From positions 124,001 through 188,000 of IMG/VR virus record IMGVR_UViG_3300046171_000162: DNA of 64,000 bases; one strand, given 5' to 3'. This stretch comes from a virus. Shown piece after piece: positions 34,600 through 54,178 of the stretch (its first letter is position 1; each line of letters opens with the position of its first letter). A program made the position numbers and the translations under genes. A model generated the notes under the pieces. It saw only the letters and a list, made by a program, of their open reading frames with translations. It had not been told where the DNA came from and searched no databases.

Positions 34600-37500
34600 A
34601 TGGTATTCTCCTACGCTGGTACTGGAAGAATGCCCCAGTTTGTTGCTGTGAAGGCACTGGGGTTAATTTCGTACAGCTATACATCAGCTATCGAGGAGCA
34701 GTTTTTATATCTAGATTTTGGTGCTTTAGGTCGTGCATACTGGGTAATTGCAGACCACGCAACCAAAGTAATACAAGATTACAAAGATGATCAAATAGTT
34801 GATTTGGTGGAGTCAGGCGGTCCCCTGAACCAACTCGACTATGGATCTATTACAGAAGTAGAAGCATACGCCACGGATGACTGGGGCGAAATTACAGTCA
34901 CGTCAAATATTCAGGCAATGGGTCGCACCCATTTCCATTCACTTACCACCTGGTCTGTTATCAAGACTTGGGTTGGTTCTGGTACAGTATTCGAGTTCGG
35001 CGGATCCAGATACAGACTGGATGCTCCATACATCGTTTCTGGAACACTGTGGGTTGCTGGCAATGCCAACACTCATTATGTACCTGCGATTGCTACGGAG
35101 GGACTACTACCCCTTCGTAGTGACACTAAAATTGCGTATGCTCCTAACTGGAATGTATTCGGCACCTTATTCAGCGGTAGCTTTGCTGGTGAGGCTGTTG
35201 TTAAGACATCCCCAGAAGATCGCAAGACACTATTCAACGTCCATGGTGATGCTGATATCAGCTTCAGACCCAACTGGGTTGGTTCTGGTGTCCTGTTCAA
35301 CTTCAGCACCACTACCTTCAAACAGACATACGATTATGTCGGTGAAGGAACTCTATTCGGCATCTCTTCTACAGAAGAAAAAGTTGTCTGGGATTACAAC
35401 AATTCCAGCATCGATTACTTTACCTATGAGAACTTTGGATCGGTTGCTGAATCACCGATCAATTCTATTACGATTCAGTCGATTGCTAACGAGACAATCC
35501 AGAGTCGTGCAAACGAAAGAATTATTGATCTAGTTGTATCTGGATCTACTTCTGGTGCATTCCTAGACTTCGGTACTATTCTCACTGATGGTGAGCAGAC
35601 TCCATCTACAGTCGGACTTGACTGGGGTGAGATTCTTACTAATCAGACAGACTATCCATTCGGTCTGTTCCCAATCAGTGGTACTGCCAAGCAAGTATTT
35701 ACTCCCAACTTTATTGGTTCTGGTGGACTGTTCGCATTCGTCAATGGTCGCGGCAGAACGAAACCAAGATGGATTGCCTTTGTCAACATTGGAATCTTTG
35801 GTGCATCGAAGACAAACTTCAGTCTGCTGCACAAAGGTTCTGGTTCGCTCTTCAGCGTTAATAACGCCGAAGATAAGAGAACATATGCATACAACGGTTC
35901 TGGTGCCCTCTACGCCTTCTCTGGTGCCTCTGAAGCGGTTGGTGCCAACCCACCAGAAAGCACTGCTATCCTGCCACTACAGGGCGAAGCAAGAGTTGCT
36001 TTCTCCCCCAATTGGATTTCACAAGGTACAGTCAAGACAGAAGGCACGGCGGTCGAGAGACAGACAGATCATTACAAAGGATCTGGAACTCTATTCAACT
36101 TCGAGACTGCTGTCGAGAAAATCACATATCATTACAGCAGCACATCTAATGATATCTTCCAGTATCGCAACTACGGATCTGTTGCCGATACTCCAATTGA
36201 ATCTATTACGATTCAATCTATTGCTAATGAGACCATTGAAAGTCGTAAGGACGACAGAATTATTGACCTGGTAGTAGGTGGCACTACTTCTGGATCTTAT
36301 CTGGATTATGGTCAAATTCTTATCAATGGTCAGGACGCTCCAGAGACTGTTCGCGAAGACTATGGTTCCATCATGGAATCCATCTCTCGTTATGCAATGG
36401 GAGATCTGCTGGTTCAGGGTACTGCATCAGTCAGGAGAGAGTTCTCTTACGTTGGTAAGGGTGACCTGTTTGCTTTCGTCGAGGGTCGTGGCAGAACGAA
36501 ACCCAGATGGATTGCCAATGTCAACATCGAGGTCAAAGGCGAGGCTCAAGATGCGGTCGTCAAACGCTTCATTGGAGATGGCAATCTATTCAACTTCGAG
36601 AAAGCAGAAGAAAGAAGAACCTTTGGTTACGAAGGTCAAGGAACCTTCTCCACATCTGGCGAAGCTTCTATCGCATACGAGAAAGCACCATATCGTGGAT
36701 ATGTCCTCTTCGATGTTACTGGCGACACAAAAGTTGCATTCGTACCAAACTTCAATGGTTCTGGTGTTGCCACTATCGATGTCGAGCACGTCGAAAGAAC
36801 TACATTCAGCGAGGTTGGATCTGGTGTCCTCTTCGACATGGGCAACCTTGTCGAGAAAAGAACGTATCACTACAGTCATACTTCCGACACTATATTCACT
36901 CCTCTGGATTATGGTTCGGTTGCTGCCAACCCAATCGACTCCATCACGATCCAGTCTATCGCTAATGATACGATTGAGAGTCGTAAGGACCAGAGAATTA
37001 TTGATCTTGTAACTGGTGGTTCTACCTCTGGTTCTTACTTCGATTATGGATCTGTCAATGACTTCTTCCCATCCATCACGGATGACTATGAAGGCATCAC
37101 CGAGACAGTCACCCGATATGCAATGGGTGGTCCACAGGTTAGTGGTGCTGCTGATGTCAACTTCAGACCTGTCCATGTTGGTTCTGGATCCATCACCATC
37201 GATATCAACACTATTGTCAGAGTGTTGCCAAGATGGATTGCCTTTGTACCCATCGAGTTTACGGGTGTTGCAACAGACACCTTCACCAAAGCATACAAGG
37301 GTTCTGGTATTCTTCCTCTACCTGTCAGCACGACAGATGCAAGAAGCTTTGCATACGAAGGCAAAGGAGAACTATTTGCCATCAACGGTGGAGAAGAAGC
37401 AGTTGCATTCGACTATCCACGTCAAGATCCTGTATTTACAATTACAGGCGAAGCGAAAGTTGCATACGTTCCCAACTGGAATGGATCTGGTACAGCAACC

Positions 37501-40500
37501 CTTTCTGGTACACTTGTCGAGAGAACTGCATTCAATCCTCCTGCGCGTGGAGATCTCTTCAGCTTCAACAATCTCGATGAGCGTAGAACATATCATTACA
37601 ACTCCAGTTCTATTGATCTACTCAACAGAATCAGCTATGGTTCTGTTGCTTCGCCAGTCATTGATTCTTGGGTCATTGCTAACCATGCAACCAAGGTCAT
37701 TCAAGACTACAGAAATGATAGACTTGTCGATCTTGTCGAGACTGGTGGTGGCGACTTCTTCGATTATGGATTCCTAGAACAGGAAAATATTGGTGGTCTC
37801 CCCAACATCAATACTCCAGATGCTACCGAAGATTATCAGTTCATCAGAGATCCAGATCTCGATGCTTCCAGATACCCCTTCGGTCATCTATTCAAGTTCT
37901 CTGGTCTTTCTGGTGGAGTCAAGGTTGTCATCAATCTGCGTCACATCGCAGTTCTGGACAAACCAACACTCAAGCTTTCTGGCGATGTATTCGTCAAACT
38001 TCCCAACAAACACGAGGGAAGTGGTGTTCTATTCAACACTGGTGGCGCAGCAGAATCTGCAACATTCAGTCCAGACGATCTTACTGGTCTATTCGACTTT
38101 GTTGGATTCGCTGCCACAAGAAGAATCCCCAACTTCAATGGTGGCGGCACCATCAGATTGGATGGTCGAGCATCTTCTGCAGTTGCATTCGCAGGATTCC
38201 AAGAGAACACGATTGTTCTTCGCGGTATCTCTGGCGTCAAGTACACACCATCCTATGCTGGAACTGGTGTTATCTCCACATTGTCTGGTGCTGCCGAGGC
38301 AGTTACAGCAAGTCCAGACGATCTCATTGGTCTGTTCGACTTTGTTGGAACGGCAACAGAGAAAGCAACAGCAGCATACACTGGTTCTGGTTCACTGTTT
38401 GCACTGTCTGGCGCAGTCGAGGCAGTTGCTGTTGCAGAAGAGAAGAGAAATCTTATCAAGGTCAGTGGCAACGCTGGCGAAAGATTCATCCCGAACTTCA
38501 ATGGTTCTGGTTCTATCTCTGTTCTTTCTGGTGCAGCAGAATCCAGAACAGGAAGTCCAGATCCATTCTTCACTCTGTTCGACTTTACTGGTCGTGGCAC
38601 AGTCAAGGCAACGGTTGTCGAGTCTGGACTCGCTCGTCTCACTCTGTCTGGAACAACCGAACCAGAGATCCTTACGTTTGCAGAGCAACCATTTGGTACT
38701 GCTACGATCCTCGGTCAGGGTGGAGAAAGATTTGTCCCCCATTACAGGGGAAGTGGTCGTATTGCAGCACTGTCTGGAGCAGCAGAATCCTTCACCGCGA
38801 ATCCTCTGGAGAGACAGCTTCTGTTCTCCATGGGTGGTATTGCTACAGAGGCATTCACCGCAGCACCTGCAGTCGAAGGAACAGAGATCAAACTCTCTGG
38901 ATCCACATCTCCAGAAATTCGTACATTTGCAGAGCAACCATTCGGGGTTATTCCTGTCAGTGGTGTTGGCGATTATATTCACGTCGATGTATACGGTGGA
39001 TTCGGTACTCTATTCTCTGGAGGATTCACTTCAGAATCTGTCACATTCAAGATTCCTCCAGTCAGAGAAGGAGACATTCTCTTCCGTGGTTCTGCAGTCG
39101 AGGCAGTTGGATTCAATCCACCAGAAGAAACTGCACATCTTCTCCTTTCTGGAGAGGTCGTTATTCCTCTTCGCACATTTGCAGAGCAACCAACCGTTCG
39201 TGTTGCTGTCAGCGGTGTTGCAATCGAGAAGAACACCGAAGTATATGTCGGAACTGGTGCTATCTTCTCCAATGGATTCACCTCCGAATCTGTCACCAGA
39301 AAACTTCCAGAGTTTACAGCACATCTCAATGTTACTGGTCTCGCAGAAGAGAAAGCAACATTCAGAGAGATCTTCTTTGGTTCCCTCTTCAAGTTCAGAG
39401 GATCTGCAGGTCGCGCACTCCTCACGTTTGCAGAGCAACCACAGACTCTATCCAAGATTAGTGGCGTTGCTGCTACCACCAGAGCAAGAGACTTTGTTGG
39501 CGAAGGCAACATCGCAACTCTTTCTGGTGCTGCAGAAGCAGTCACCTTCAATCCTCTGGAAAGAGATCTGCTCTTCGATGTTGCTGGCATCGCTGCAGAA
39601 AGAAGAACCAATGCATTTGTTGGTACTGGTCAGATCAGAATCTACCCAGAAGCAGCAGACATCAGATTCACCCCCAACTGGAATGTCGAAGGTGTCATTC
39701 CTGTCAGTGGTACTGCGGTCGAGCGTGTCGCGAGAGACGAGGTTGTTCAGGTCAACATCGGAACATTCTCTGGTGCAGCAGAGTCTGTTACCTTCAATCC
39801 TCTCGAAAAAGACATGCTGTTCTCCATTGGAGGCAGAGCAGCATACAGAACTTCTGTATCGGAAGTCAAACTTGCCGACGCAAGAATCTTCGCAGCAGAA
39901 GACAACAACGGAACAACCACCAAGATACACATCGGTTCTGGAACAGCAACTCTATCTGGTGCTGGTCGTATTGTTATTACTCTCTCCTACGTTGGAGACA
40001 TCAGAATTGGTACATTCTCTGGTGCAGCAGAATCCATTACTGTCAACCCACTGGAGAAGGATCTACTATTCTCCACAGCTGGTATTGCGACTCTACGTTC
40101 TACTCGTGCTTACTATGGATCTGGTTCTCTCTTCGCACTCAACGGTGCAGCAGAATCCAGAACTGTTGCTCCACCAGCAGAAGGTCTATACGACATTACT
40201 GGCGAAGCGAAGATTGTTATCACAGTCTCCCACATTGGCGACGGCAATCTCTTCAGTTTCGTTACGAGCGACGAGAAAGTTGCATACGATTATGTTGGAG
40301 AGCAAGTTCTCTTCAATCTATCTGGCGAAGCAGTCGAGAGAATTACCAATGCAGAATCTGGATTTGGTTCTATCTTCTCGTTCTCTGGTGCAGCAGAAAG
40401 AGTTGCCTTTGTACCAAGTCTGCTCGCAGATGTCAACATTGCTGGTCGTGCAGCAACTCCAAGATCCAGAGTATTCACTGGTTCTGGAGACCTGTATGCA

Positions 40501-40992
40501 TTCGACAGTGCAGCAGAGTCCAGAACAATTACTGTCGAGAACGTCGCAATCTTCGACTTCCTCGGTCAGGTCAAACCTGCTATCACCAAGGTATACACTG
40601 GCGACACAGAGATCAAAACTTCTGGCGAAGCAAGTGTTGCATTCGTCAGAGCACCTTATGCAGGTCAGACAGAAGTTCAACTATCTGGTACTGCAGCAGA
40701 AAGCAGAACCGCCAACCCACCAGAAGAAGGCACAGAGATTGCAACCACTGGCGAGGCGAAGGTTCTTCGCTCCTTTGGTTACGAGGGATCTGGTCAAATT
40801 ACGGTCGATGTCGATTCCATCATCGGCATTTCTCTCCGTATCTTTGGTACTGGATCTATCAAGGTCGATGTTCGCAGCGTCTACTTCCCACTACTCCAGC
40901 ACAGACCAGATGTTCACATCTACATCGCTGGTAGCGCAGCAACTGTCAAGATTGATGTTGCTCCACCACGTACCTATGGATGGATTATTTAA
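34600..40992 (+). CDS. 2,130-aa repetitive tail fibre protein
   Basis: The first half holds five long repeats of about 240 residues, anchored by a (I/L)(I/V)DLVxxGG motif at about nt 34795, 35520, 36260, 37000 and 37724, most preceded by GSVAxxPIxSITIQSIANxT. The second half is many short units of the type GSGxLFxxSGAAESxTxxPxE and TFAEQPFG. There is no globular catalytic domain; the C-terminus is LLQHRPDVHIYIAGSAATVK plus a short tail. The pattern fits a very long beta-structured fibre shaft. The ATG is 16 bases after a strong terminator with no clear late promoter or Shine-Dalgarno, so expression probably relies on read-through or an unseen promoter. Internal repeats make assembly collapse possible. 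Confidence 0.75.
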   Translation: MVFSYAGTGRMPQFVAVKALGLISYSYTSAIEEQFLYLDFGALGRAYWVIADHATKVIQDYKDDQIVDLVESGGPLNQLDYGSITEVEAYATDDWGEITVTSNIQAMGRTHFHSLTTWSVIKTWVGSGTVFEFGGSRYRLDAPYIVSGTLWVAGNANTHYVPAIATEGLLPLRSDTKIAYAPNWNVFGTLFSGSFAGEAVVKTSPEDRKTLFNVHGDADISFRPNWVGSGVLFNFSTTTFKQTYDYVGEGTLFGISSTEEKVVWDYNNSSIDYFTYENFGSVAESPINSITIQSIANETIQSRANERIIDLVVSGSTSGAFLDFGTILTDGEQTPSTVGLDWGEILTNQTDYPFGLFPISGTAKQVFTPNFIGSGGLFAFVNGRGRTKPRWIAFVNIGIFGASKTNFSLLHKGSGSLFSVNNAEDKRTYAYNGSGALYAFSGASEAVGANPPESTAILPLQGEARVAFSPNWISQGTVKTEGTAVERQTDHYKGSGTLFNFETAVEKITYHYSSTSNDIFQYRNYGSVADTPIESITIQSIANETIESRKDDRIIDLVVGGTTSGSYLDYGQILINGQDAPETVREDYGSIMESISRYAMGDLLVQGTASVRREFSYVGKGDLFAFVEGRGRTKPRWIANVNIEVKGEAQDAVVKRFIGDGNLFNFEKAEERRTFGYEGQGTFSTSGEASIAYEKAPYRGYVLFDVTGDTKVAFVPNFNGSGVATIDVEHVERTTFSEVGSGVLFDMGNLVEKRTYHYSHTSDTIFTPLDYGSVAANPIDSITIQSIANDTIESRKDQRIIDLVTGGSTSGSYFDYGSVNDFFPSITDDYEGITETVTRYAMGGPQVSGAADVNFRPVHVGSGSITIDINTIVRVLPRWIAFVPIEFTGVATDTFTKAYKGSGILPLPVSTTDARSFAYEGKGELFAINGGEEAVAFDYPRQDPVFTITGEAKVAYVPNWNGSGTATLSGTLVERTAFNPPARGDLFSFNNLDERRTYHYNSSSIDLLNRISYGSVASPVIDSWVIANHATKVIQDYRNDRLVDLVETGGGDFFDYGFLEQENIGGLPNINTPDATEDYQFIRDPDLDASRYPFGHLFKFSGLSGGVKVVINLRHIAVLDKPTLKLSGDVFVKLPNKHEGSGVLFNTGGAAESATFSPDDLTGLFDFVGFAATRRIPNFNGGGTIRLDGRASSAVAFAGFQENTIVLRGISGVKYTPSYAGTGVISTLSGAAEAVTASPDDLIGLFDFVGTATEKATAAYTGSGSLFALSGAVEAVAVAEEKRNLIKVSGNAGERFIPNFNGSGSISVLSGAAESRTGSPDPFFTLFDFTGRGTVKATVVESGLARLTLSGTTEPEILTFAEQPFGTATILGQGGERFVPHYRGSGRIAALSGAAESFTANPLERQLLFSMGGIATEAFTAAPAVEGTEIKLSGSTSPEIRTFAEQPFGVIPVSGVGDYIHVDVYGGFGTLFSGGFTSESVTFKIPPVREGDILFRGSAVEAVGFNPPEETAHLLLSGEVVIPLRTFAEQPTVRVAVSGVAIEKNTEVYVGTGAIFSNGFTSESVTRKLPEFTAHLNVTGLAEEKATFREIFFGSLFKFRGSAGRALLTFAEQPQTLSKISGVAATTRARDFVGEGNIATLSGAAEAVTFNPLERDLLFDVAGIAAERRTNAFVGTGQIRIYPEAADIRFTPNWNVEGVIPVSGTAVERVARDEVVQVNIGTFSGAAESVTFNPLEKDMLFSIGGRAAYRTSVSEVKLADARIFAAEDNNGTTTKIHIGSGTATLSGAGRIVITLSYVGDIRIGTFSGAAESITVNPLEKDLLFSTAGIATLRSTRAYYGSGSLFALNGAAESRTVAPPAEGLYDITGEAKIVITVSHIGDGNLFSFVTSDEKVAYDYVGEQVLFNLSGEAVERITNAESGFGSIFSFSGAAERVAFVPSLLADVNIAGRAATPRSRVFTGSGDLYAFDSAAESRTITVENVAIFDFLGQVKPAITKVYTGDTEIKTSGEASVAFVRAPYAGQTEVQLSGTAAESRTANPPEEGTEIATTGEAKVLRSFGYEGSGQITVDVDSIIGISLRIFGTGSIKVDVRSVYFPLLQHRPDVHIYIAGSAATVKIDVAPPRTYGWII
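34690..37770 (+). repeat. Five approximately 735-bp coding repeats in the long fibre gene
   Basis: The anchor motif (I/L)(I/V)DLV recurs at spacings of about 725, 740, 740 and 724 bases. Copies 2-4 share SITIQSIAN and the copies diverge at both ends, so they are old, selected repeats rather than recent duplications. Copies 1 and 5 share WVIA(D/N)HATKVIQDY instead, so the outer and inner copies form two subtypes. Confidence 0.75.
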
Positions 40993-40995
40993 TAG

Positions 40996-41003
40996 TATAA
41001 ATA
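40996..41003 (+). promoter_or_regulatory. T4-type late promoter (TATAAATA)
   Basis: This perfect octamer lies 4 bases after the stop of the long fibre gene and 25 bases before ATG 41029. Confidence 0.75.
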
Positions 41004-41028
41004 ACATTGGTATCCTAAATTAATTTTA

Positions 41029-41487
41029 ATGACTACCCAGGTACAGTTTAGAAGAGGTACTACTGCTGAACATGCTCACTTCGCGGGAGCGCAGGGTGAG
41101 TTGACCATTGATACTGATAAAAATATGGCGGTTGTCCATGATGGGACAACTAACGGTGGATTTGATGTTTTTCGTGCTCGGTGGGAGTATCTAAATCAGA
41201 GTGTCACGCTTGGCACTAGTCTTCGTTATCTCGTAGACTCGTCAGGTGGACCACTCACACTGACTCTGCCTTTGTATAACAATCAATTGGTTCCTAAAGC
41301 AGGGGACACATTGGAGTTCATTGATATTAATTTTACGTGGGATACAAATAATGTAACAATCGTCGATCCAATTGGAAGAGAATTTCAAAACACTTTTGGA
41401 GTTATTTCCAGTCCTTTAGTATTCGACTTGAAAGGAGCGAGAGTGCAACTAATTTGGGACGGTAACTACTGGAGGGTAATTGTATGA
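41029..41487 (+). CDS. Mtd-N-like small fibre protein
   Basis: The product has 152 residues. It begins TTQVQFRRGTTAEHAHFAGA followed by QGELTIDTDKNMAVVHDG. This is the intertwining N-terminal module known from the major tropism determinant and many other phage fibre stems. The C-terminal 80 residues form a beta domain ending in VQLIWDGNYWRVI, a motif also ending the 45575 protein (LELIYSGSSYGWSIL). The stop overlaps the next ATG (ATGA). It is probably a trimeric fibre or tip component. No reverse transcriptase or variable repeat accompanies it, so there is no diversity-generating element. Confidence 0.7.
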   Translation: MTTQVQFRRGTTAEHAHFAGAQGELTIDTDKNMAVVHDGTTNGGFDVFRARWEYLNQSVTLGTSLRYLVDSSGGPLTLTLPLYNNQLVPKAGDTLEFIDINFTWDTNNVTIVDPIGREFQNTFGVISSPLVFDLKGARVQLIWDGNYWRVIV

Positions 41488-41891: not shown

Positions 41892-44800
41892 ATGGCAGAT
41901 TTCAGATTAGGCAGACTTAAGTTTAATTGGAGGGGCGACTGGACAGTTGCCACTGCATACGTCATCGATGACATCGTTAAGTTTGGTGCAAACACTTTTG
42001 TTTGTATTTCAAACCACACGTCAGCATCGAATGAGGCGCAATGGTATGGATCGGATGGTGCCAGATGGCAACTCCATACCGAAGGCATTTACCACAGAGG
42101 TGAATGGGCAGATGCAACCTTCTATAGAACTAATGATATTGTCAAGTATGGCAATGATCAGTATAGGGTTGTCAACCCCCACACTTCCAGCGGATCTTTC
42201 GCTGCTGCAAACTTCGTCTCGTATATTAACGGACTGAAGTTTGAAGATACGTGGGACACCAATACTGAATACCAACCAGGTGACATTGTAACTTTCGGTG
42301 GTTACTCTTATGTTGCTCAAACAATCTCTACTGGTTCACAACCCAATAGCACTATTGGTAGTGACTGGGAGATCCTAACTACTGGTTTCAAGGTAGTTGG
42401 TACATGGAGCAACAGCACCGAATACAAGCCTGGTGACGTTGTACTCCTTGGTGGTAACTCCTACGTTGCTAAAACAACCAACACAAACTCCACACCTGGA
42501 TCTAATCCTTCTGATTGGGACTTCGTTGTTGGTGGTTTCACCTGGAGAGGCACTTGGGATACAAGCACAACTTACCAACCTGGTGATGCTGTCACCAGAG
42601 CAAGTAACTCCTACATCTGTGTTGCCGAAACAACTGGCAACGAACCTGAACTAGATGTTAACGGAGACTACTGGAACTCCCTGACCCAAGGCGCACAGTC
42701 TAACGTACTAACCGATGCTGGTGATGTTCTTTACATCTCTGGTTCAGGTGCTGCAAGACTACCTATTGGAACAACTGGTCAAGTTCTATCCGTTGATTCT
42801 AACGGATTCCCCGCATGGGAAAACAACAATGTTACCGACCCTGTTTACTATGTTACCACAAATGGTAACGACCTAAACGACGGTTCTAACATCAGCAAAG
42901 CATTTGCTTCACTCTCTCATGCAGTAAGTCTTGTTACTGGTCCTGCTACCATTTATGTTAAGGCAGGTATCTATAACGAAACTCTACCAATCATCGTTCC
43001 CGAGAACGTTTCGATCATTGGTGACAACATGAGAACGTCCACCGTTAAACCAAACGTTGGACAACCTTCTAACATCCAAAGACTAACACTTGCAACGATT
43101 CCTCTTGCTGCAGAGAGAGTCATTGGCGAGACATGCACAAATGGTGCTGGCGATAAGACCGCACAGATCATGGATGTCAGAGACGGTGGTGCTAGCATCG
43201 ACGTTATGCCTCTTACTGGCGGCGTCTGGACTACCTCCGATACTTTCGACAATGGTGGTGCTAATATCGCACTTAACACCGTGAACACTCTCAATAACGA
43301 GAACGCAACTCTCTTCTATCTGTCTAACAGATCGATGCTGAAGGATCTCGTTATGGACGGTATGGCAGGATTCGTTCCTTCTGTATCCGATCCAAAGGAT
43401 ATGAACACCTCTACTCCAGATGGTGTATTCGTTAGACTGAACCCCAACTCCCCAATCTCCAAGTCTCCTTACGTTTCGCAGTGTTCTGCATTCTCCCAGA
43501 CTGGTATTGGTGCAATTGTTGACGGTGGTGTTCACGATAAGTATGACGGAACTGGAACTCCTTCTAACAAGTCTATCGTTTTTGACTCCTGGACTAACAT
43601 CCACGAAAGCGGTGGTGTAGGTTTCTGGATTACGAACAACGGCGCTGCTGAAATCGTATCCTGCTTCACCTACTATTGCCACATCTCTTACACCTCTACT
43701 AGAGGCGGTAGAATCAGATCCTTGGCAGGTAACTCCTCCTGGGGTACTTACGCTATTGTTTCCTCTGGTTTCAACGAAAATGAGTCTACTCTCGATGGAT
43801 TCATCGACGGTATCGAACTCAACTACGATCCCCTTACCCTATCTACAGGCGCAACTTTTGAAAGTGCCGAGAATGTTACGGGTGGTACTTCTGGTGCAGT
43901 TGGCGAAATTACTAGTTTCCAACCTTCGGCAGACAAGATTCTTATCCGTCCTCTCAAAGGTAACTTTGCACAGAACGAAGTTGTCACTGGTAGCAATTCT
44001 ACAGCAACTGCAACTCTGGTCAACAACTCTGACGCTCAAAAGGGTATGTCAGGTTTCACCTTTGTTCTCGGTGGTCTAACCGCTGCTCCTGACCCAGGTG
44101 GTTCTATTGAATACATCACTGGTCCTGGTGGACTCGGTTCTGATCTATTCACTTATGTTGTTGCTAACTCTTCTTACGCTGGTCCTACTGGACGTGGAGA
44201 ACTGACTGTAACCAGAGGACTTCTTGGTTCTGCTGCTACAACTCATGATGGTTTGAGCACTGTTGCTAGATACCAAACTGGTACTGCAACATCTCTATCT
44301 GCTCCTGTTAGTGACGCGGTTGGCACTGTCATCCAAGTTGCTTCGATTACTGGCATTAACACTGGTGGTTATGTCATCATCGAAGACGAGATGATGGAAG
44401 TCGTTTCGTTCCCAACTGCAACTTCTGTTGAAGTTATCAGAGGAGTAGAAGGCACCACTGGTGCTGCACATAACTCTGGCGTTACAGTCAGAGCACTTCA
44501 GATCAAGGTTCCTACCGAGACAACTACCGCTAGAGACCTAACAGCATCTGACACAGTTATTCTTGTTGAAACGTCTACGGGTACTCTATCCTCTGACTAC
44601 ATCAAGATTGACAGTGAGTTCATGCAGGTTTCCCAATCCGCAACAATTACAACTGGTACTGTACTGGTTGTTCTTGCAGAAGAGAAGCCTAGTGCAACTT
44701 ACGATCGTCAAGCTACAAGAATCAGATACCTGTATTCACAAGTCAGACTAACTGGTCATGACTTCCTGGATATCGGTACTGGTAACAAGACCCAGACTAA

Positions 44801-45164
44801 CTGGCCAGGTCAGCCTCTATCGGCACCTGCACCAGGTAATGAGGTTACTGAAAACTTCCCTGGTCGTGTGTTCTTCGTATCCACGGACCAAGATGGTAAC
44901 TTCACCGTTGGTCGTTACTTCAAAGTTAACCAGGCAACTGGTAGCACAACCTTGAACGCATCTTCCTTCGACTTGTCTGGTCTATCATCCTTGAGACTTG
45001 GTTCCATCGGTGCTCAAATCGGTGAATCTATTAACGAGTTCTCGGCGGATGTAACCATGTCTGCAAATAGCAACGCTAAAGTTCCTACGCAGAAGGCAGT
45101 CAAGACTTACGTTGACACAAAGACGAAGACGAAAGGCTTCACTTTCTGGGCGGGAGCAATGTGA
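41892..45164 (+). CDS. Tailspike/fibre with five carbohydrate-binding-like repeats and a beta-helix
   Basis: The product has 1,090 residues. Residues 1-280 hold five units of about 50 aa of the type W(R)GxWxxxTxYxxGDxVxxxxxxYxC/V, for example TWDTNTEYQPGDIVTFGGYS and TWDTSTTYQPGDAVTRASNS, similar to CBM5/12 chitin-binding-like modules. A linker with GTTGQVLSVDSNGFPAW follows. From about 315 comes a DUF1565/pectate-lyase-like right-handed beta-helix start (YYVTTNGNDLNDGSNISKAF, then IYVKAGIYNETLPIIVPENV). A central beta-helix runs to about 650. RGVEGT-type modules lie near 830-880. The C-terminus (SADVTMSANSNAKVPTQKAV) is a fibre trimerisation-type tail. It probably binds or degrades host surface polysaccharide; no catalytic residues can be assigned. 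Confidence 0.78.
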   Translation: MADFRLGRLKFNWRGDWTVATAYVIDDIVKFGANTFVCISNHTSASNEAQWYGSDGARWQLHTEGIYHRGEWADATFYRTNDIVKYGNDQYRVVNPHTSSGSFAAANFVSYINGLKFEDTWDTNTEYQPGDIVTFGGYSYVAQTISTGSQPNSTIGSDWEILTTGFKVVGTWSNSTEYKPGDVVLLGGNSYVAKTTNTNSTPGSNPSDWDFVVGGFTWRGTWDTSTTYQPGDAVTRASNSYICVAETTGNEPELDVNGDYWNSLTQGAQSNVLTDAGDVLYISGSGAARLPIGTTGQVLSVDSNGFPAWENNNVTDPVYYVTTNGNDLNDGSNISKAFASLSHAVSLVTGPATIYVKAGIYNETLPIIVPENVSIIGDNMRTSTVKPNVGQPSNIQRLTLATIPLAAERVIGETCTNGAGDKTAQIMDVRDGGASIDVMPLTGGVWTTSDTFDNGGANIALNTVNTLNNENATLFYLSNRSMLKDLVMDGMAGFVPSVSDPKDMNTSTPDGVFVRLNPNSPISKSPYVSQCSAFSQTGIGAIVDGGVHDKYDGTGTPSNKSIVFDSWTNIHESGGVGFWITNNGAAEIVSCFTYYCHISYTSTRGGRIRSLAGNSSWGTYAIVSSGFNENESTLDGFIDGIELNYDPLTLSTGATFESAENVTGGTSGAVGEITSFQPSADKILIRPLKGNFAQNEVVTGSNSTATATLVNNSDAQKGMSGFTFVLGGLTAAPDPGGSIEYITGPGGLGSDLFTYVVANSSYAGPTGRGELTVTRGLLGSAATTHDGLSTVARYQTGTATSLSAPVSDAVGTVIQVASITGINTGGYVIIEDEMMEVVSFPTATSVEVIRGVEGTTGAAHNSGVTVRALQIKVPTETTTARDLTASDTVILVETSTGTLSSDYIKIDSEFMQVSQSATITTGTVLVVLAEEKPSATYDRQATRIRYLYSQVRLTGHDFLDIGTGNKTQTNWPGQPLSAPAPGNEVTENFPGRVFFVSTDQDGNFTVGRYFKVNQATGSTTLNASSFDLSGLSSLRLGSIGAQIGESINEFSADVTMSANSNAKVPTQKAVKTYVDTKTKTKGFTFWAGAM

Positions 45165-45225: not shown

Positions 45226-45546
45226 ATGGCTTCTGGCATCCTGGGGACACAAGCTTCCCTATCAGCTAACACCCTAACCACAGTATATACCGTCCCTGCA
45301 GCAACTGTTGCATACGTTAACTTTAACATCGTCAACACGAACTCTACGCCTGTTAGCGTTCGTGTTGCTCTCGCTGCTACCAGCACACCTACTGGCGCAG
45401 AATACATTGAGTACAATGCAGAAATTGCAGGGTACGGTATTCTGGAGAGAACTGGTATTGCGCTTCAGGCAACTAAAAACATTGTAGTGCTTTCCGATAC
45501 GGCAAACGTCAGCGTAGCTGCGTATGGCGTTGAAGAAGAGGCTTGA
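45226..45546 (+). CDS. Small beta-sandwich fibre protein
   Basis: The product has 106 residues, all beta: TTVYTVPAATVAYVNFNIVN, NSTPVSVRVALAA, then EYIEYNAEIAGYG and KNIVVLSDTANVSVAAYGVE. The same order of motifs (VIYTVPTDEEALVSLFVANQ ... QYLEYNRDIV ... QSVVVFTDTDGVSFSVYAKF) forms the second domain of the virion protein at 55010, so the two are related. An AAGGAG ribosome site lies upstream. It is probably a small tail or head decoration or fibre-tip protein. Confidence 0.68.
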   Translation: MASGILGTQASLSANTLTTVYTVPAATVAYVNFNIVNTNSTPVSVRVALAATSTPTGAEYIEYNAEIAGYGILERTGIALQATKNIVVLSDTANVSVAAYGVEEEA

Positions 45547-45574: not shown

Positions 45575-45904
45575 ATGGGACGCAATCTATCAGCACCACC
45601 CCTAGAGCAAAGAACTACTCTAGGTATCACAGCAAACCACAGTGTTCTGTCGGGAGAAATCCTGATGATTGACACTACCGCTGGATCGGAAATTACACTA
45701 ACACTACCCGCAAACCCCGCAGTGGGCGATCGTATCAATCTAATTGATGCAGCAGGTCAGTGTGGTACAACGAAAGCAATTCTTGCTAGAAATGGCAATA
45801 AAATCGCTAACCTTGCAGAAGACCTAGACTTCGATATTAAAAATGCATCACTTGAGTTAATCTATAGTGGATCTTCTTACGGTTGGTCGATCCTTTCTAA
45901 CTAA
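45575..45904 (+). CDS. Small fibre-tip-like protein
   Basis: The product has 109 residues. It has a beta-rich pattern common to phage fibre heads: NHSVLSGEILMIDTTAGSEI, TLTLPANPAVGDRINLIDAA, NGNKIANLAEDLDFDIKNAS, and the end LELIYSGSSYGWSIL. The same order occurs in the C-terminal half of the 41029 protein. An AAGGAG ribosome site lies upstream. It is co-transcribed with the Cys-rich genes and may be part of the same adhesin complex. Confidence 0.65.
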   Translation: MGRNLSAPPLEQRTTLGITANHSVLSGEILMIDTTAGSEITLTLPANPAVGDRINLIDAAGQCGTTKAILARNGNKIANLAEDLDFDIKNASLELIYSGSSYGWSILSN

Positions 45905-45927: not shown

Positions 45928-46863
45928 ATGTCGAGTTTAAGAGACTTACTGGATGTTGCAGACGACAGTGCAGTACCAGTAACTACATATTACGGTCCCC
46001 AAAACAGTCACCAAATTTGGTTTCGTGGGGGTCACTGTTGGGAATATAATAACAACCACAGTTACAACTGGCAAGAACTTTGCTGGTGCGTCCCTGTTTG
46101 CTGCGTTTGTAAACTAGAGATTGAAATCTGGGGTGGAGGCGGCGGCGGCGCTGGTGCTTGCTGCTGTATGAACGGATGGAATGGACATTCTGGTCAGTAC
46201 AATAAGACCACAGTTTGCGCTGCACAATCTAGCATTGGTGGCACCGAACTAGATGGTTGCAAGTATTGCTTCTGTGCTGCCTCGGTCACCTGTAGATCTC
46301 CATCTAACAGTGGTTACGACGGTTGTAAGTCCTGGGTCAACGGTCCTGGTCTAGACAACTTCTGTGCTTGTGGTGGATGCCACGGTCGCTCCTGTTGCTT
46401 CGGTGCTGCTAACTACTCTGGTGGTTGTAGATCCAGAGAGAACTGGATGGTCAGTCAAGCATGGTGCAGATGGCAGACTAACTGCTGGTCTGCAGATCGC
46501 GAATGTCGCGAATACTGCTGTGAGTTCGGTAAGGAATACTGGGGTGCTCAAAACTCCTATAACCAGAACAGTTGCTCCGATTGCGGCAACTGGTGTATGA
46601 TGAAAAACTATGTGCCTACTGCCCCTTACCAAGATGGTAAGTTCGGCACACTCCACACTACCAGACGTTGCTCTATGGCAACATGTGGTAGAGAAGCAAC
46701 AATGTGGATGGAAGGTAACAACGCTGGTCTTTCCAGTGACTGTTTCCGTAATGGTCCTCCTGGCATGGGTGGATTCTCTGCTGATGTATTTGGTAGAGGT
46801 TGCTGCTGTGGTTCCGAAGGTGCTGCAGGTCTTGTTAAAATCACATGGTACTGTAAGACTTAA
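45928..46863 (+). CDS. Cysteine-rich, glycine-rich putative adhesin A
   Basis: The product has 311 residues with 36 cysteines by hand count, including CCC and CC clusters. The layout is an N-terminal SLRDLLDVADDS helix, a strand, then IEIWGGGGGGAGACCCMNGW, a long Cys/Gly/Trp/Asn-rich body without hydrophobic segments, and a C-terminal strand EGAAGLVKITWYC. The Gly block plus final strand match the polyglycine-rich tip domain of phage fibres, but with Cys at positions usually Gly or Ser. There is no signal peptide. A GGGAGG ribosome site lies upstream. It forms a tandem family with the next two genes. The cysteines could form disulfides after lysis in oxic water or bind metal; neither is shown. 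Confidence 0.65.
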   Translation: MSSLRDLLDVADDSAVPVTTYYGPQNSHQIWFRGGHCWEYNNNHSYNWQELCWCVPVCCVCKLEIEIWGGGGGGAGACCCMNGWNGHSGQYNKTTVCAAQSSIGGTELDGCKYCFCAASVTCRSPSNSGYDGCKSWVNGPGLDNFCACGGCHGRSCCFGAANYSGGCRSRENWMVSQAWCRWQTNCWSADRECREYCCEFGKEYWGAQNSYNQNSCSDCGNWCMMKNYVPTAPYQDGKFGTLHTTRRCSMATCGREATMWMEGNNAGLSSDCFRNGPPGMGGFSADVFGRGCCCGSEGAAGLVKITWYCKT

Positions 46864-46869
46864 TTAAAG

Positions 46870-47802
46870 ATGGCAAATTTACGAGGACTACTAGGGAAGG
46901 AATTTGCTTCCACAATTACTGACACCGCAGCGGTATATGGTAGCTATACCCGTGTCAGAGACGGGATGGTATTCAACTTCCATCCTTACTGTAACAGAGG
47001 AAACTGTGAGCAGTCATACCACGACTATTGCATCAATCATTGGTGTGTTCCTTGTGGTACTACCCAGATCACTTTTGAACTCTGGGGTGGTGGCGGTTCT
47101 GGCGGTGGCGCATGCTGCTGTCAACAGGGTATCCCTGGTGGTGCTGGTGCATATGTCAGAAAGACTCTACAGTATCCACAGATCCAAGGTGGATGGTGTT
47201 ACGCAATGGTCGTAGCATCGCCTACATGTTGCTCACAGTGCTGCTGTGGTATCCAAGGTTGTAAGTCTTACATCACTGGTTGCAACTTAAGTAACCTTTG
47301 TGCAGAAGGTGGTCTTCCTGGTAAGACTTGCTGTTATGCATTCTGGGGCAATGAATTCAGATGTGAAGATAGAGTTTACTTCTCTGGTGCTGGTGGTTGG
47401 ACACCTGGAACAGATAAGTCCAACTCCTATGGTGGAGACGAAATGATTCCTGGTGGTCCTGGATTCTTCAGAACCTATAATAACTCCGATACTTGCTGGG
47501 CAAAAATTGGAATGGCATACCCAGGTAGACTCATTGACCACAAAGGTGGTCACATTATGTCTAATAATAGAGGTAATGCTTGTAACCAGGAACGTACCTA
47601 CTGTAATGGAACTACTCCTTGGGCATATAGCACAAACTGTAATGGCGGTCCTGGTATCCCTGGCGTTGGTGCTCCTTCCGCAACTTCTTGCTCTAATAGC
47701 TGCTGCTATGGATGGCGCGGTCAAGGTGGATTTATTAAGATCACATACTGTTCCTGCTGGTTAGGCGTCAATAATGACTGCGCTTTCCACTTCTGTAACT
47801 AA
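46870..47802 (+). CDS. Cysteine-rich, glycine-rich putative adhesin B
   Basis: The product has 310 residues with 31 cysteines by hand count. It has the same plan as its neighbours: ANLRGLLGKEFAS at the start, FELWGGGGSGGGACCCQQGI in the middle with PGGAGAYVRKTL after it, Cys clusters (CCSQCCCG), and the closing strand GQGGFIKITYCSC plus a short Cys-containing tail. It starts 6 bases after the stop of A. The Gly-rich block and the end are conserved with A and C, while the middle (for example GGWTPGTDKSNSYGGDEMIP) differs, as expected for a receptor-facing part under diversifying selection. Confidence 0.65.
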   Translation: MANLRGLLGKEFASTITDTAAVYGSYTRVRDGMVFNFHPYCNRGNCEQSYHDYCINHWCVPCGTTQITFELWGGGGSGGGACCCQQGIPGGAGAYVRKTLQYPQIQGGWCYAMVVASPTCCSQCCCGIQGCKSYITGCNLSNLCAEGGLPGKTCCYAFWGNEFRCEDRVYFSGAGGWTPGTDKSNSYGGDEMIPGGPGFFRTYNNSDTCWAKIGMAYPGRLIDHKGGHIMSNNRGNACNQERTYCNGTTPWAYSTNCNGGPGIPGVGAPSATSCSNSCCYGWRGQGGFIKITYCSCWLGVNNDCAFHFCN

Positions 47803-47805
47803 ATA
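47798..47805 (+). promoter_or_regulatory. Possible late promoter variant (ACTAAATA)
   Basis: One mismatch to NATAAATA. It overlaps the stop of Cys-rich gene B and lies 23 bases before gene C. Confidence 0.35.
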
Positions 47806-47828
47806 TCAATTAAGAAGAGCCATAGAAG

Positions 47829-48728
47829 ATGCCAAATACCAATTTACGAGACTTATTAGGAGTCGTCACTACCGCACAAATTCAGGCATTAGCTGAAGCG
47901 GACACTACAACAAAAGTACCCCCATATCCTTCAAAGGATTACACGGTGATGTACATCGCAGCACACTGCGGTGCAACGTGTGATAACTGGACTTCTAACT
48001 ATGGATACTTCCAGTATCCTGATTGGAAAGTTCCTGCAAACACCACCGAGGTCATCTTTGAGATCTGGGGTGCTGGTGGATCTGGTGGCGATAGTCGCTG
48101 CTGTGGTAGAGGCATCCCTGGTGGTTCTGGTGCTTATGCATATAAGAAACTATCTGGAAATAATGTTGTTCCTGGTTGTTCTTATTCTATTGATATTGGA
48201 CAGGGTGGTAGAGCAAGGAATAACTTGACTTGTGGTCAAAAAGGTGGAGACACCTACATCACAGGTTTTGGTCTTTCTAACTTCTGTGCTAATGGTGGTG
48301 ATGGAGGATGCTCCTGCTGCTACATGTGCTGCTGCTTCTGGATGACGAAGTGTGGTGTATGCTGTAATGGACCTTGTGCTCCATACTACGGTGCTGATGG
48401 TGGTGCTTATGGCAACGCTGGTGCTGGTAACGTGTTCTGCCAAGGCAACCACTGCCACAACAAGCAATACATCCCCTACCCTGCTGGTCTAGTTAACGGT
48501 AAGGGCGGTTGGTTGCCCATGACCCAGTGTGAGCACAGAGGATGTGGATATTGTAGCACAATGTGGGCTACTGCACAACTACAGTGGGGCGGTTCATATT
48601 CAGAAGGAAACTATGTTCCTGGCATTGGCGGTGCTTCTGCTTGGACTGATGGTGGATGCTGCTATGGTCAGCATGGATATCACGGTCTTATTCGGATTTC
48701 CTACAAGCAATCTGAATGCAGCTACTGA
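47829..48728 (+). CDS. Cysteine-rich, glycine-rich putative adhesin C
   Basis: The product has 299 residues with 25 cysteines by hand count. It starts with TNLRDLLGVVTTAQIQALAE, followed by VIFEIWGAGGSGGDSRCCGR with GIPGGSGAYAYKKL. A dense cluster, SCCYMCCCFWMTKCGVCCNG, lies near residue 165. It ends HGYHGLIRISYKQSE plus CSY. This copy is closest to ordinary polyglycine fibre-tip domains (GQGGRARNN, GGDTYITGFGLSNF), so it may show the ancestral state from which the Cys-richer copies A and B diverged. That direction is inference. Confidence 0.65.
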   Translation: MPNTNLRDLLGVVTTAQIQALAEADTTTKVPPYPSKDYTVMYIAAHCGATCDNWTSNYGYFQYPDWKVPANTTEVIFEIWGAGGSGGDSRCCGRGIPGGSGAYAYKKLSGNNVVPGCSYSIDIGQGGRARNNLTCGQKGGDTYITGFGLSNFCANGGDGGCSCCYMCCCFWMTKCGVCCNGPCAPYYGADGGAYGNAGAGNVFCQGNHCHNKQYIPYPAGLVNGKGGWLPMTQCEHRGCGYCSTMWATAQLQWGGSYSEGNYVPGIGGASAWTDGGCCYGQHGYHGLIRISYKQSECSY

Positions 48729-48786: not shown

Positions 48787-49512
48787 ATGGCGAAAATTTC
48801 AAAGGAATACACTTATAACCTACCTGACGAGTACACGAAGCAGACTAGTGATCTTGGACTAACTGCTACTGCGACCTACAATGGTCCAGAATTCTTATAT
48901 GTATTCGTTGATGCAGCGACTGGTACACTACTACCAGCGCAATCCTGCATGCCTGTCAGAAATGAAACTGAAGATGCAGAGAATGCACAAATCAGAGCAG
49001 GTCTAGACGAGAGAGCAATTCTTCTCCGCCCTAAAACCTCCAACACTGATGCTATCATTGCATCTGTCTTCTTCCACACCGATACTGGCAAAGATGCTGG
49101 TTATCCCCAGAAGGAGTACAAGTTGGCAGGCGAAACCGAAGCATATTACGAGCGTCCCGATCCCCAACTACCCGACCACACCTACAATGTAGATGCAATC
49201 GAGTATGATTTTTCTGCTGGTGAGTGGAAAGAACCCTTCCCCTTCATGGAAGTTTGGATCACCATGGAACAGCACAAAGCTGCTCGCGACGGTATCCTAA
49301 AAGGCGCACAAGATTTCCTTGCAGAACAGAGAGCTAATCTGATCGCAAGTCAAGTCACTGCTATCGAAACATTCATCACTACGATGGAAAATGTATACAC
49401 CAAGTATGATGGCGTTGACGCATTCATGATTCCTTTCCCTGAAGATCCTACACTTGGTCTCCTAGAGAACTATGACTATAACGTAGACGAGGAAGGTCTT
49501 CTATCTGAATGA
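48787..49512 (+). CDS. Late protein of unknown function (possible fibre-associated chaperone)
   Basis: The product has 241 residues. The N-terminal 120 residues are beta/alpha with few known signals. Residues 125-160 include PDHTYNVDAIEYDFSAGEWK; the C-terminal 80 residues are helical (QHKAARDGILKGAQDFLAEQ; NLIASQVTAIETFITTMENV) with an acidic end. A helical acidic C-terminus after a small beta domain is also seen in tail-fibre assembly chaperones, and it sits at the end of the fibre block before a terminator, but no sequence signature confirms this. Confidence 0.55.
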   Translation: MAKISKEYTYNLPDEYTKQTSDLGLTATATYNGPEFLYVFVDAATGTLLPAQSCMPVRNETEDAENAQIRAGLDERAILLRPKTSNTDAIIASVFFHTDTGKDAGYPQKEYKLAGETEAYYERPDPQLPDHTYNVDAIEYDFSAGEWKEPFPFMEVWITMEQHKAARDGILKGAQDFLAEQRANLIASQVTAIETFITTMENVYTKYDGVDAFMIPFPEDPTLGLLENYDYNVDEEGLLSE

Positions 49513-53534: not shown

Positions 53535-53841
53535 TATCGACGGCACTATCTGTTTCCCTGGTGAAGGTGATGCTGTGTACACACATGCCAGACCCAGGGA
53601 AGATCGTATCCGTAGAATCAATCAACTATACATTGAAGGAAATGAAGTAATCTACCTCACAGCTAGAGGTATGGGACGCTATAATAATGATCGTCAGAAA
53701 GCACATGACGAATTCTATGAGTTCACCAAGAAACAATTATGTGAATGGGGGTGCATGTTCGACGCTTTATACCTAGGTAAACCTTCTGGAGATATATACA
53801 TTGACGACAAAGGAGTCAGCGACCATGAGTTCTTCAATTAA
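53518..53841 (+). CDS. HAD-family phosphatase, capsule/heptose type
   Basis: The product has 107 residues. The HAD motif I is VDIDGTICF, motif II is IYLTARG, and the acidic motif IV is GDIYIDDKG, all in the usual order; the size fits small capsular-biosynthesis HAD phosphatases. In the ADP-heptose pathway a HAD phosphatase (GmhB) removes the C7 phosphate between the kinase and adenylyltransferase steps, so a GmhB-like job is suggested by context, though the protein is shorter than GmhB. It overlaps the kinase by 17 bases and the cupin gene by 17 bases. Confidence 0.75.
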   Translation: MKYVVDIDGTICFPGEGDAVYTHARPREDRIRRINQLYIEGNEVIYLTARGMGRYNNDRQKAHDEFYEFTKKQLCEWGCMFDALYLGKPSGDIYIDDKGVSDHEFFN

Positions 53842-54178
53842 GTTCGTCCCTAAAGGTTGGGGTCACGAGAAGTGGATCGTCAACAATGAAAAATACTGTG
53901 GAAAACTTTTGTTCTTTGAAAAAGGAAAGAAATGTTCCTGGCATTACCATGAGTTAAAAGAAGAAACATTCTATATTCATTCAGGCAAATTGCAATTGGT
54001 CTATGGATATCATGATGACTTCATAGATGCAGACACAGTAATATTAAAACCTGGAGACAAGTTTGAAGTCCCCAGGTTATTGCGCCATCAAATGAAGGCG
54101 TTAGAAGATACAGAGATGTATGAGTTCTCTACGACACACTTTGACTCTGACTCTTATCGAGTAAAGAAAGGTGACTGA
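53825..54178 (+). CDS. Cupin-domain protein, sugar-isomerase-like
   Basis: The product has 117 residues, starting at ATG 53825 with an AGGAG site 9 bases before it. The cupin motif 1 is CSWHYHELKEETFYIHSG (two His, Glu, then Gly) and motif 2 is PGDKFEVPRLLRHQMKA, with DFIDADTVIL between. Such small cupins resemble the C-terminal domain of mannose-6-phosphate isomerase/guanylyltransferase or sugar epimerases. In the cassette it could isomerise or epimerise the sugar phosphate; GmhA (the usual isomerase) is absent from the window, but that link is speculation. Its end overlaps the convergent epimerase gene by 50 bases. Confidence 0.75.
   Translation: MSSSIKFVPKGWGHEKWIVNNEKYCGKLLFFEKGKKCSWHYHELKEETFYIHSGKLQLVYGYHDDFIDADTVILKPGDKFEVPRLLRHQMKALEDTEMYEFSTTHFDSDSYRVKKGD

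Follow-up and report, generated by a model that had tools for sequence, protein, structure and literature searches.

Cysteine-rich proteins with a glycine-rich domain as predicted tail-fibre tips in several cyanophage lineages

Known fibre-tip adhesins and the S-CAM1 locus

The closest described system is the fibre of cyanophage Pam3. Three domains make up its protein gp24: a helical one for docking, one that is TNF-like and one that is rich in glycine. The last of these has GGGGxGG loops, and the receptor is proposed to bind at their variable distal ends. The adjacent chaperone is gp25; neither cysteine nor disulfide is mentioned in that paper (PMC9608196). The T-even gp38-type adhesins, such as gp38 of Salmonella phage S16 (PDB 6F45), are separate adhesins in which glycine-rich motifs carry variable loops (PMC9608196). 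The middle domain of S16 gp38 is a β-helix, unlike the proteins reported here, and S16 gp38 is absent among the Foldseek matches listed for our models. We know of no cysteine framework in S16 gp38.

To our knowledge, most cyanomyovirus receptors and receptor-binding proteins have yet to be assigned. The comparison of 16 cyanomyovirus genomes published in 2010 includes P-SSM2 and S-SSM7, and cysteine is unmentioned in its main text (PMC3037559). The virion proteomes in that comparison are those of S-SM1, S-PM2 and Syn9 (PMC3037559), in which tblastn detected no copy of the genes reported here. Because the published virion proteomes that were found are from phages without a detected copy, they do not contradict the presence of these proteins in virions.

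The stretch of DNA that was analysed, referred to below as the window, is 64,000 nt long and corresponds to positions 124001–188000 of a record of 197,476 bases. It contains three adjacent genes, here called A, B and C (Table 1), which are 100% identical to genes of Synechococcus phage S-CAM1 (Kyanoviridae, Anaposvirus socalone). A preliminary description of this DNA had recognised them as three neighbouring paralogous genes for proteins of about 300 residues, and this is borne out: the open reading frames have the lengths given in Table 1, the aligned proteins are approximately 31–34% identical to each other, and all three match the phrog_4205 profile (E values of 3e-94, 8e-103 and 6e-98), each match spanning at least positions 2–286 of 287. 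By this similarity A, B and C are paralogues. The cysteine counts made by hand in the preliminary description (36, 31 and 25, with CC and CCC clusters) proved exact on recounting, and amount to 11.6, 10.0 and 8.4% of residues. Cysteine makes up 0–4.1% of the other main gene products in the window, and in the whole 197-kb genome A, B and C are the only non-overlapped open reading frames of at least 200 residues to reach at least 6%. The common N-terminal peptide (N/S)LR(D/G)LL and the closing strand (G)(L/F)(V/I)(K/R)I(T/S) that had been claimed are both present, the latter as GLVKIT, GFIKIT and GLIRIS. The claimed WGGGGxGG block is found in A (WGGGGGG) and B (WGGGGSGG) but departs slightly in C, where it reads WGAGGSGG.

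Table 1. Features of the fibre and tip region, in window coordinates
Feature	Position	Strand	Remarks
Long tail-fibre protein, 1090 aa, presumed shaft bearing the tips	41892..45164	+	phrog_9851; upstream of A
Small protein resembling a tail fibre, encoded between the long fibre gene and A	45226..45546	+	phrog_11338 tail fiber, E 2e-10
Small protein with a tail-fibre domain, encoded between the long fibre gene and A	45575..45904	+	phrog_8859; resembles phrog_972 (tail fibre proximal subunit)
Protein A, first paralogue, Cys-rich with a glycine-rich domain; predicted adhesin of the fibre tip	45928..46863	+	ORF, 311 aa
AGACCC cluster after the WGGGGGG block, protein A residues 75–80 (Cys 78–80)	46150..46167	+	Sequence
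Protein B, paralogue 2	46870..47802	+	ORF, 310 aa
CCC cluster, protein B Cys 82–84, presumed tip of first glycine-rich loop	47113..47121	+	Sequence
Protein C, paralogue 3	47829..48728	+	ORF, 299 aa; Pfam Gly_rich_2
Companion, 241 aa, candidate chaperone for assembling the fibre tips	48787..49512	+	phrog_9740

Relatives and conservation of the cysteines

The families phrog_4205 and phrog_35878 have as members A, B and C together with their relatives from P-SSM2 and Sf-FS3. The preliminary description had named membership of a well-described family as a ground for rejecting its reading, and knew of no such cysteine enrichment in a phage adhesin. No paper describing the family, or any Cys-rich cyanophage tip protein, was found in our literature search, which covered papers available without subscription, and the PHROG families are annotated as being of unknown function; within this scope the enrichment does appear to be novel, and it is not peculiar to the present genome. 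The tip function of phrog_4205 and phrog_35878 is a proposal of the present analysis, none having been assigned before.

The three genes recur at the corresponding place in S-CAM3, and a scan of viral contigs gave 79 loci, nearly all with the order A-B-C. There are also three copies in S-SSM7, S-SSM6a and Sf-FS3, while P-SSM2, P-SSM5 and one single-cell virus have two, one on each side of the companion gene. Ordered triplets are therefore found in the S-CAM1/S-CAM3-like and the S-SSM7/Sf-FS3-like phages, and pairs in the P-SSM2-like phages. In one clade (L082 and L085, 7988–9451) the third of the Cys-rich proteins is longer, reaching 488 residues with 46 cysteines. A cellular origin was also considered; in a search of genome contigs just two, both from metagenome-assembled genomes, matched, one labelled archaeal and one Flavobacteriales, and we read both as phage contigs binned with those genomes.

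Altogether, 318 distinct full-length relatives were collected from 222 loci. All have between 6.1 and 13.0% cysteine, with a median of 9.9% and none lower, in a collection for which some of the later search patterns contained cysteine and Cys-rich matches had an advantage at confirmation; the two patterns used in the first scan do not demand cysteine, yet the relatives that they found are all Cys-rich. The other open reading frames of at least 250 residues at the same loci serve as background; their median is 1.3% and their 99th percentile 3.5%.

The positions of the cysteines are also conserved. In the class alignments, where mean identity is approximately 49–58%, the mean column identity for cysteine is 0.69 in A, 0.85 in B and 0.76 in C. 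This makes cysteine the most conserved residue type in B, the second in C (after glycine, 0.78) and the third in A (after glycine, 0.76, and proline, 0.71). Protein B has the most conserved set, with 16 cysteine columns at 90% or above among 39 non-redundant sequences that have a mean identity of 58% to the S-CAM1 protein. Its CCC cluster (82–84) is 100% cysteine in these 39 sequences and is kept across lineages. In the cluster of protein A, Cys79 is conserved in 100% and Cys78 and Cys80 in 87% of 38 sequences. Cys83, 84, 120, 144 and 165 (B numbering) are common to most or all lineages, in an alignment of a kind that can over-align cysteines because it is so rich in them. Judging from these sequences, cysteine richness is an old and conserved trait of a single cyanophage tip family, extending well beyond this genome.

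The remainder of each protein changes rapidly. Identity to the S-CAM3 counterparts is 35% for A, 44% for B, 45% for C and 40% for the companion, compared with 62–79% for the fibre and the other flanking genes, which places A, B, C and the companion among the fastest-diverging genes of the neighbourhood at the sequence level. Fast change around a fixed cysteine framework is the pattern expected from a stapled recognition scaffold.

Predicted fold and gene neighbourhood

Pfam identifies the Gly_rich_2 domain (PF21722, cut-off 24.3 bits) in C at 40.4 bits; B scores 16.5 bits and A gives no match. Among 58 family members, 26 match this domain at E ≤ 0.01. Structures of A and B were predicted using AlphaFold2 on the family alignments, with moderate confidence (pLDDT 73.0 and pTM 0.78 for A; pLDDT 74.7 and pTM 0.76 for B). 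The first 22–31 residues have a pLDDT below 50, and the N terminus shows just the short LRxLL peptide. Using Foldseek, the best solved structure for both models is the Pam3 fibre, 7yfw_a for A (E 8e-5) and 7ypx_A for B (E 1.8e-6), with a probability of 1.00 but TM-scores of only 0.37–0.51; the next matches are the Bxb1 tail tip and the glycine-rich domain of ALK/LTK. Profile searches against the PDB gave no match at E ≤ 1 for the A3 profile, and only antibody chains at E ≥ 0.06 for the A2 profile. The models thus predict that A and B share the TNF-like and glycine-rich fold of the Pam3 fibre.

The resemblance to Pam3 gp24/gp25 (PDB 7YPX, 7YFW) extends to the GGGGxGG motif, to the size of the tip, a single protein of approximately 300 residues, and to the presence of a chaperone-family gene directly downstream. 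There are also clear differences. The proteins reported here are three (or two) tandem paralogues with 8–12% cysteine; the Pam3 glycine-rich domain is 39% glycine, as against 14–18% for the whole A, B and C proteins; and gp24 has an N-terminal helical domain, for which the models of A and B contain no confident equivalent. The ALK/LTK glycine-rich (TG) domain, although a weak match, has the same TNF-like plus glycine-rich architecture; these are animal receptor tyrosine kinases, and no gene relationship is implied. The protein gp38 of the related cyanophage Syn9 (Q0QZJ0) is a further structural match, which carries PF21722 and occupies a similar place after the tail-fibre gene. Unlike A, B and C, it has only 2 cysteines in 266 residues (0.75%). 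Downstream of the Syn9 tail-fibre gene there is also a glycine-rich protein with 8 cysteines in 316 residues. Since a tip-type glycine-rich protein can be Cys-poor, as it is in Syn9, the cysteine framework is a separate innovation rather than a property of the fold.

The genes of the window run in the order long fibre, two small fibre genes, A, B, C and companion. S-CAM3 has an identical order, and P-SSM2, Sf-FS3 and S-SSM7 have variants of it; the position of the first small fibre gene is matched in both S-CAM3 and P-SSM2. A phrog_9740 companion is found alongside the Cys-rich proteins in each of the three lineages, the P-SSM2-type members of this family matching weakly. The domain Phage_tail_APC (PF16778) is above the Pfam cut-off in the companion relatives of S-SSM7 and Sf-FS3. 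The S-CAM1 companion itself has no PF16778 match in Pfam, so that its candidate role as the fibre-assembly chaperone of the tips rests on family membership. It was also considered as a sequence homologue of Pam3 gp25, and the PDB search gave no match.

Three further features of the window were observed. The long tail-fibre protein contains five CBM_5_12 carbohydrate-binding stretches. A short tail protein at 41029–41487 starts with the N-terminal domain of a major tropism determinant (Mtd_N). Further upstream, 34600–40992 encodes a repeat-rich protein of 2130 residues without a single cysteine; the 1077-residue open frame at 37790–41023 and the Cys-rich frames that overlap this repeat protein look like by-products of its codon use.

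Proposed function and the role of the cysteines

The preliminary description had related the polyglycine block and closing strand to phage fibre-tip domains. The Gly_rich_2 domain in C, the Pam3 top matches, the fibre and chaperone-family context and the fast divergence all agree with this, and we consider it very probable that A, B and C are tips of the tail fibre. In each tip, a short peptide for docking at the N terminus, (S/N)LRxLL, would be combined with a TNF-like β-sandwich and a glycine-rich domain with variable distal loop ends. The tips may fold in the cytoplasm with the help of the Phage_tail_APC-type companion encoded downstream, and would then be mounted onto the long fibre encoded upstream. 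After the virion leaves the reducing cell, the conserved cysteine clusters at the turns and flanks of the glycine-rich loops would oxidise to a dense network of disulfides, stapling the loops so that their sequences are free to vary while the tip remains rigid and durable in seawater. Taken as a whole, with receptor binding, chaperone and disulfide network included, this is the best explanation we can offer, and we think it somewhat more probable than otherwise.

The arrangement of the cysteines bears on the last step. Compared with composition-matched shuffles, CC is enriched 1.9-fold and CCC 4.7-fold, while CxxC, the usual knuckle of zinc and Fe-S sites, is at 1.1-fold (3.4 per protein observed, 3.1 shuffled), and histidine makes up 1.8% of residues. 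Enriched CC and CCC, near-chance CxxC and rare histidine lean towards disulfides over zinc or Fe-S sites. In protein B the runs CCC (82–84), CCSQCCC (120–126) and CSNSCC (274–279) lie between outgoing and returning glycine-rich or loop stretches, and by analogy with the Pam3 layout are presumed to occupy the loop tips; in the models generally, cysteines sit in predicted strands and loops alike. On the other hand, even and odd cysteine counts are about equally common among the family sequences, the sum of A, B and C is likewise without parity constraint, and single cysteine changes are the commonest branch event on trees of 68–69 sequences. Analysis of cysteine co-change on the trees gave no excess of pairs in A or B, and a modest excess in C (C178–C242). 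The lack of parity and the mostly single losses do not support fully paired intrachain disulfides. A dense network that tolerates single losses, with some cysteines interchain or free, would fit these observations, as would metal or free thiols. The preliminary suggestion of either disulfides or metal is thus answered in part: the enriched motifs favour disulfides, and the counts and losses speak against strict pairing. If the proteins are tips, we hold disulfides to be the probable state of the cysteines.

Among the alternatives, the cysteine clusters could instead hold zinc, iron or copper, and so lend the tip stability or interact with the metal uptake of the host, along the lines of the Ferrojan-horse idea for marine phage tails. 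The CCC and CC clusters would allow this, odd counts and single losses suit redundant ligands better than pairs, and iron binding in marine phage tails has been proposed. However, CxxC is not enriched over shuffles, histidine is rare, some 30 cysteines exceed any ordinary site, and no metalloprotein profile matched A, B or C, which makes metal binding unlikely. Thiols or strained disulfides at the tip might also exchange with thiols of the host surface and make attachment irreversible, for which the absence of strict pairing and the vicinal cysteines at the presumed loop tips could be cited; but a few exposed cysteines would suffice for such a switch, 25–36 are not required, and the conserved ones are spread through the whole domain. 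We regard this reading as very unlikely.

The remaining two alternatives concern the proteins as a whole. Given that we infer the virion location, and that glycine-rich domain proteins are found in varied viral contexts, A, B and C could be decorations with this fold, at the side or on the capsid, rather than tips at the cell contact, or could act inside the cell as products of the fibre operon. In three lineages, however, their genes lie in order with those for fibre and chaperone; this, the Pam3-like predicted fold, and the fact that they diverge fastest together with the companion make such a reading improbable. It could finally be argued that the cysteine richness is an accident of composition, produced by drift, a wrong frame or low-complexity bias and without function, since wrong-frame open reading frames in the neighbouring repeat gene look Cys-rich in the same way. 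This is refuted by the 318 distinct relatives, in which both the open frames and the cysteine content are kept; cysteine moreover ranks near the top in conservation among the residue types at the mean identities given above, and the Syn9 protein with the same Pfam domain is Cys-poor. We give it practically no chance of being correct.

We therefore return to the stapled fibre tip. A more specific form of it, which we put forward tentatively and think rather doubtful, is that the tip of a single fibre combines three distinct Cys-rich subunits, inherited together, whose disulfide network forms only after lysis. Such a hypervariable, Cys-stapled recognition scaffold, borne by widespread ocean cyanophages, would be comparable in principle to knottin scaffolds. 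The proteins would represent a Cys-rich version of the TNF-like/glycine-rich fibre-tip adhesin which, as far as the searchable literature goes, has been overlooked so far. If the cysteines do form disulfides, these would be phage structural proteins of unusual cysteine density that fold in a reducing cytoplasm and mature outside it, and they would provide a new way of joining loop diversity with stability in seawater. The analysis in any case names a concrete candidate tip module, consisting of the Cys-rich tips and their putative chaperone, in isolates with known hosts (S-CAM1, S-CAM3, P-SSM2, S-SSM7 and Sf-FS3) and in many environmental viral contigs, and so makes its role directly testable.

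Phage functions that might serve the cysteines were also searched for. No tRNA-Cys that could supply the Cys codons was found in the phage, and the search for a dedicated oxidant gave no thioredoxin match; it did find two glutaredoxins, which we take as ordinary for T4-like phages. A link to cysteine metabolism was considered in view of the gene at 53801–54178, annotated in S-CAM1 as a cysteine dioxygenase; it matches Cupin_2, sits among sugar genes and is probably misnamed, so that it lends such a link no support. Outside the window, S-CAM1 has a permuted two-piece cyanobacterial tmRNA gene at G000:C1:48528-48842 (L228:8528-8842), adjoining tRNA-Arg and tRNA-Val. It matches the Rfam family cyano_tmRNA at 128 bits, and ARAGORN gives its tag as ANTSDSAANNIVAFSRSTVAA; the phage thus encodes its own copy of the RNA that rescues ribosomes.
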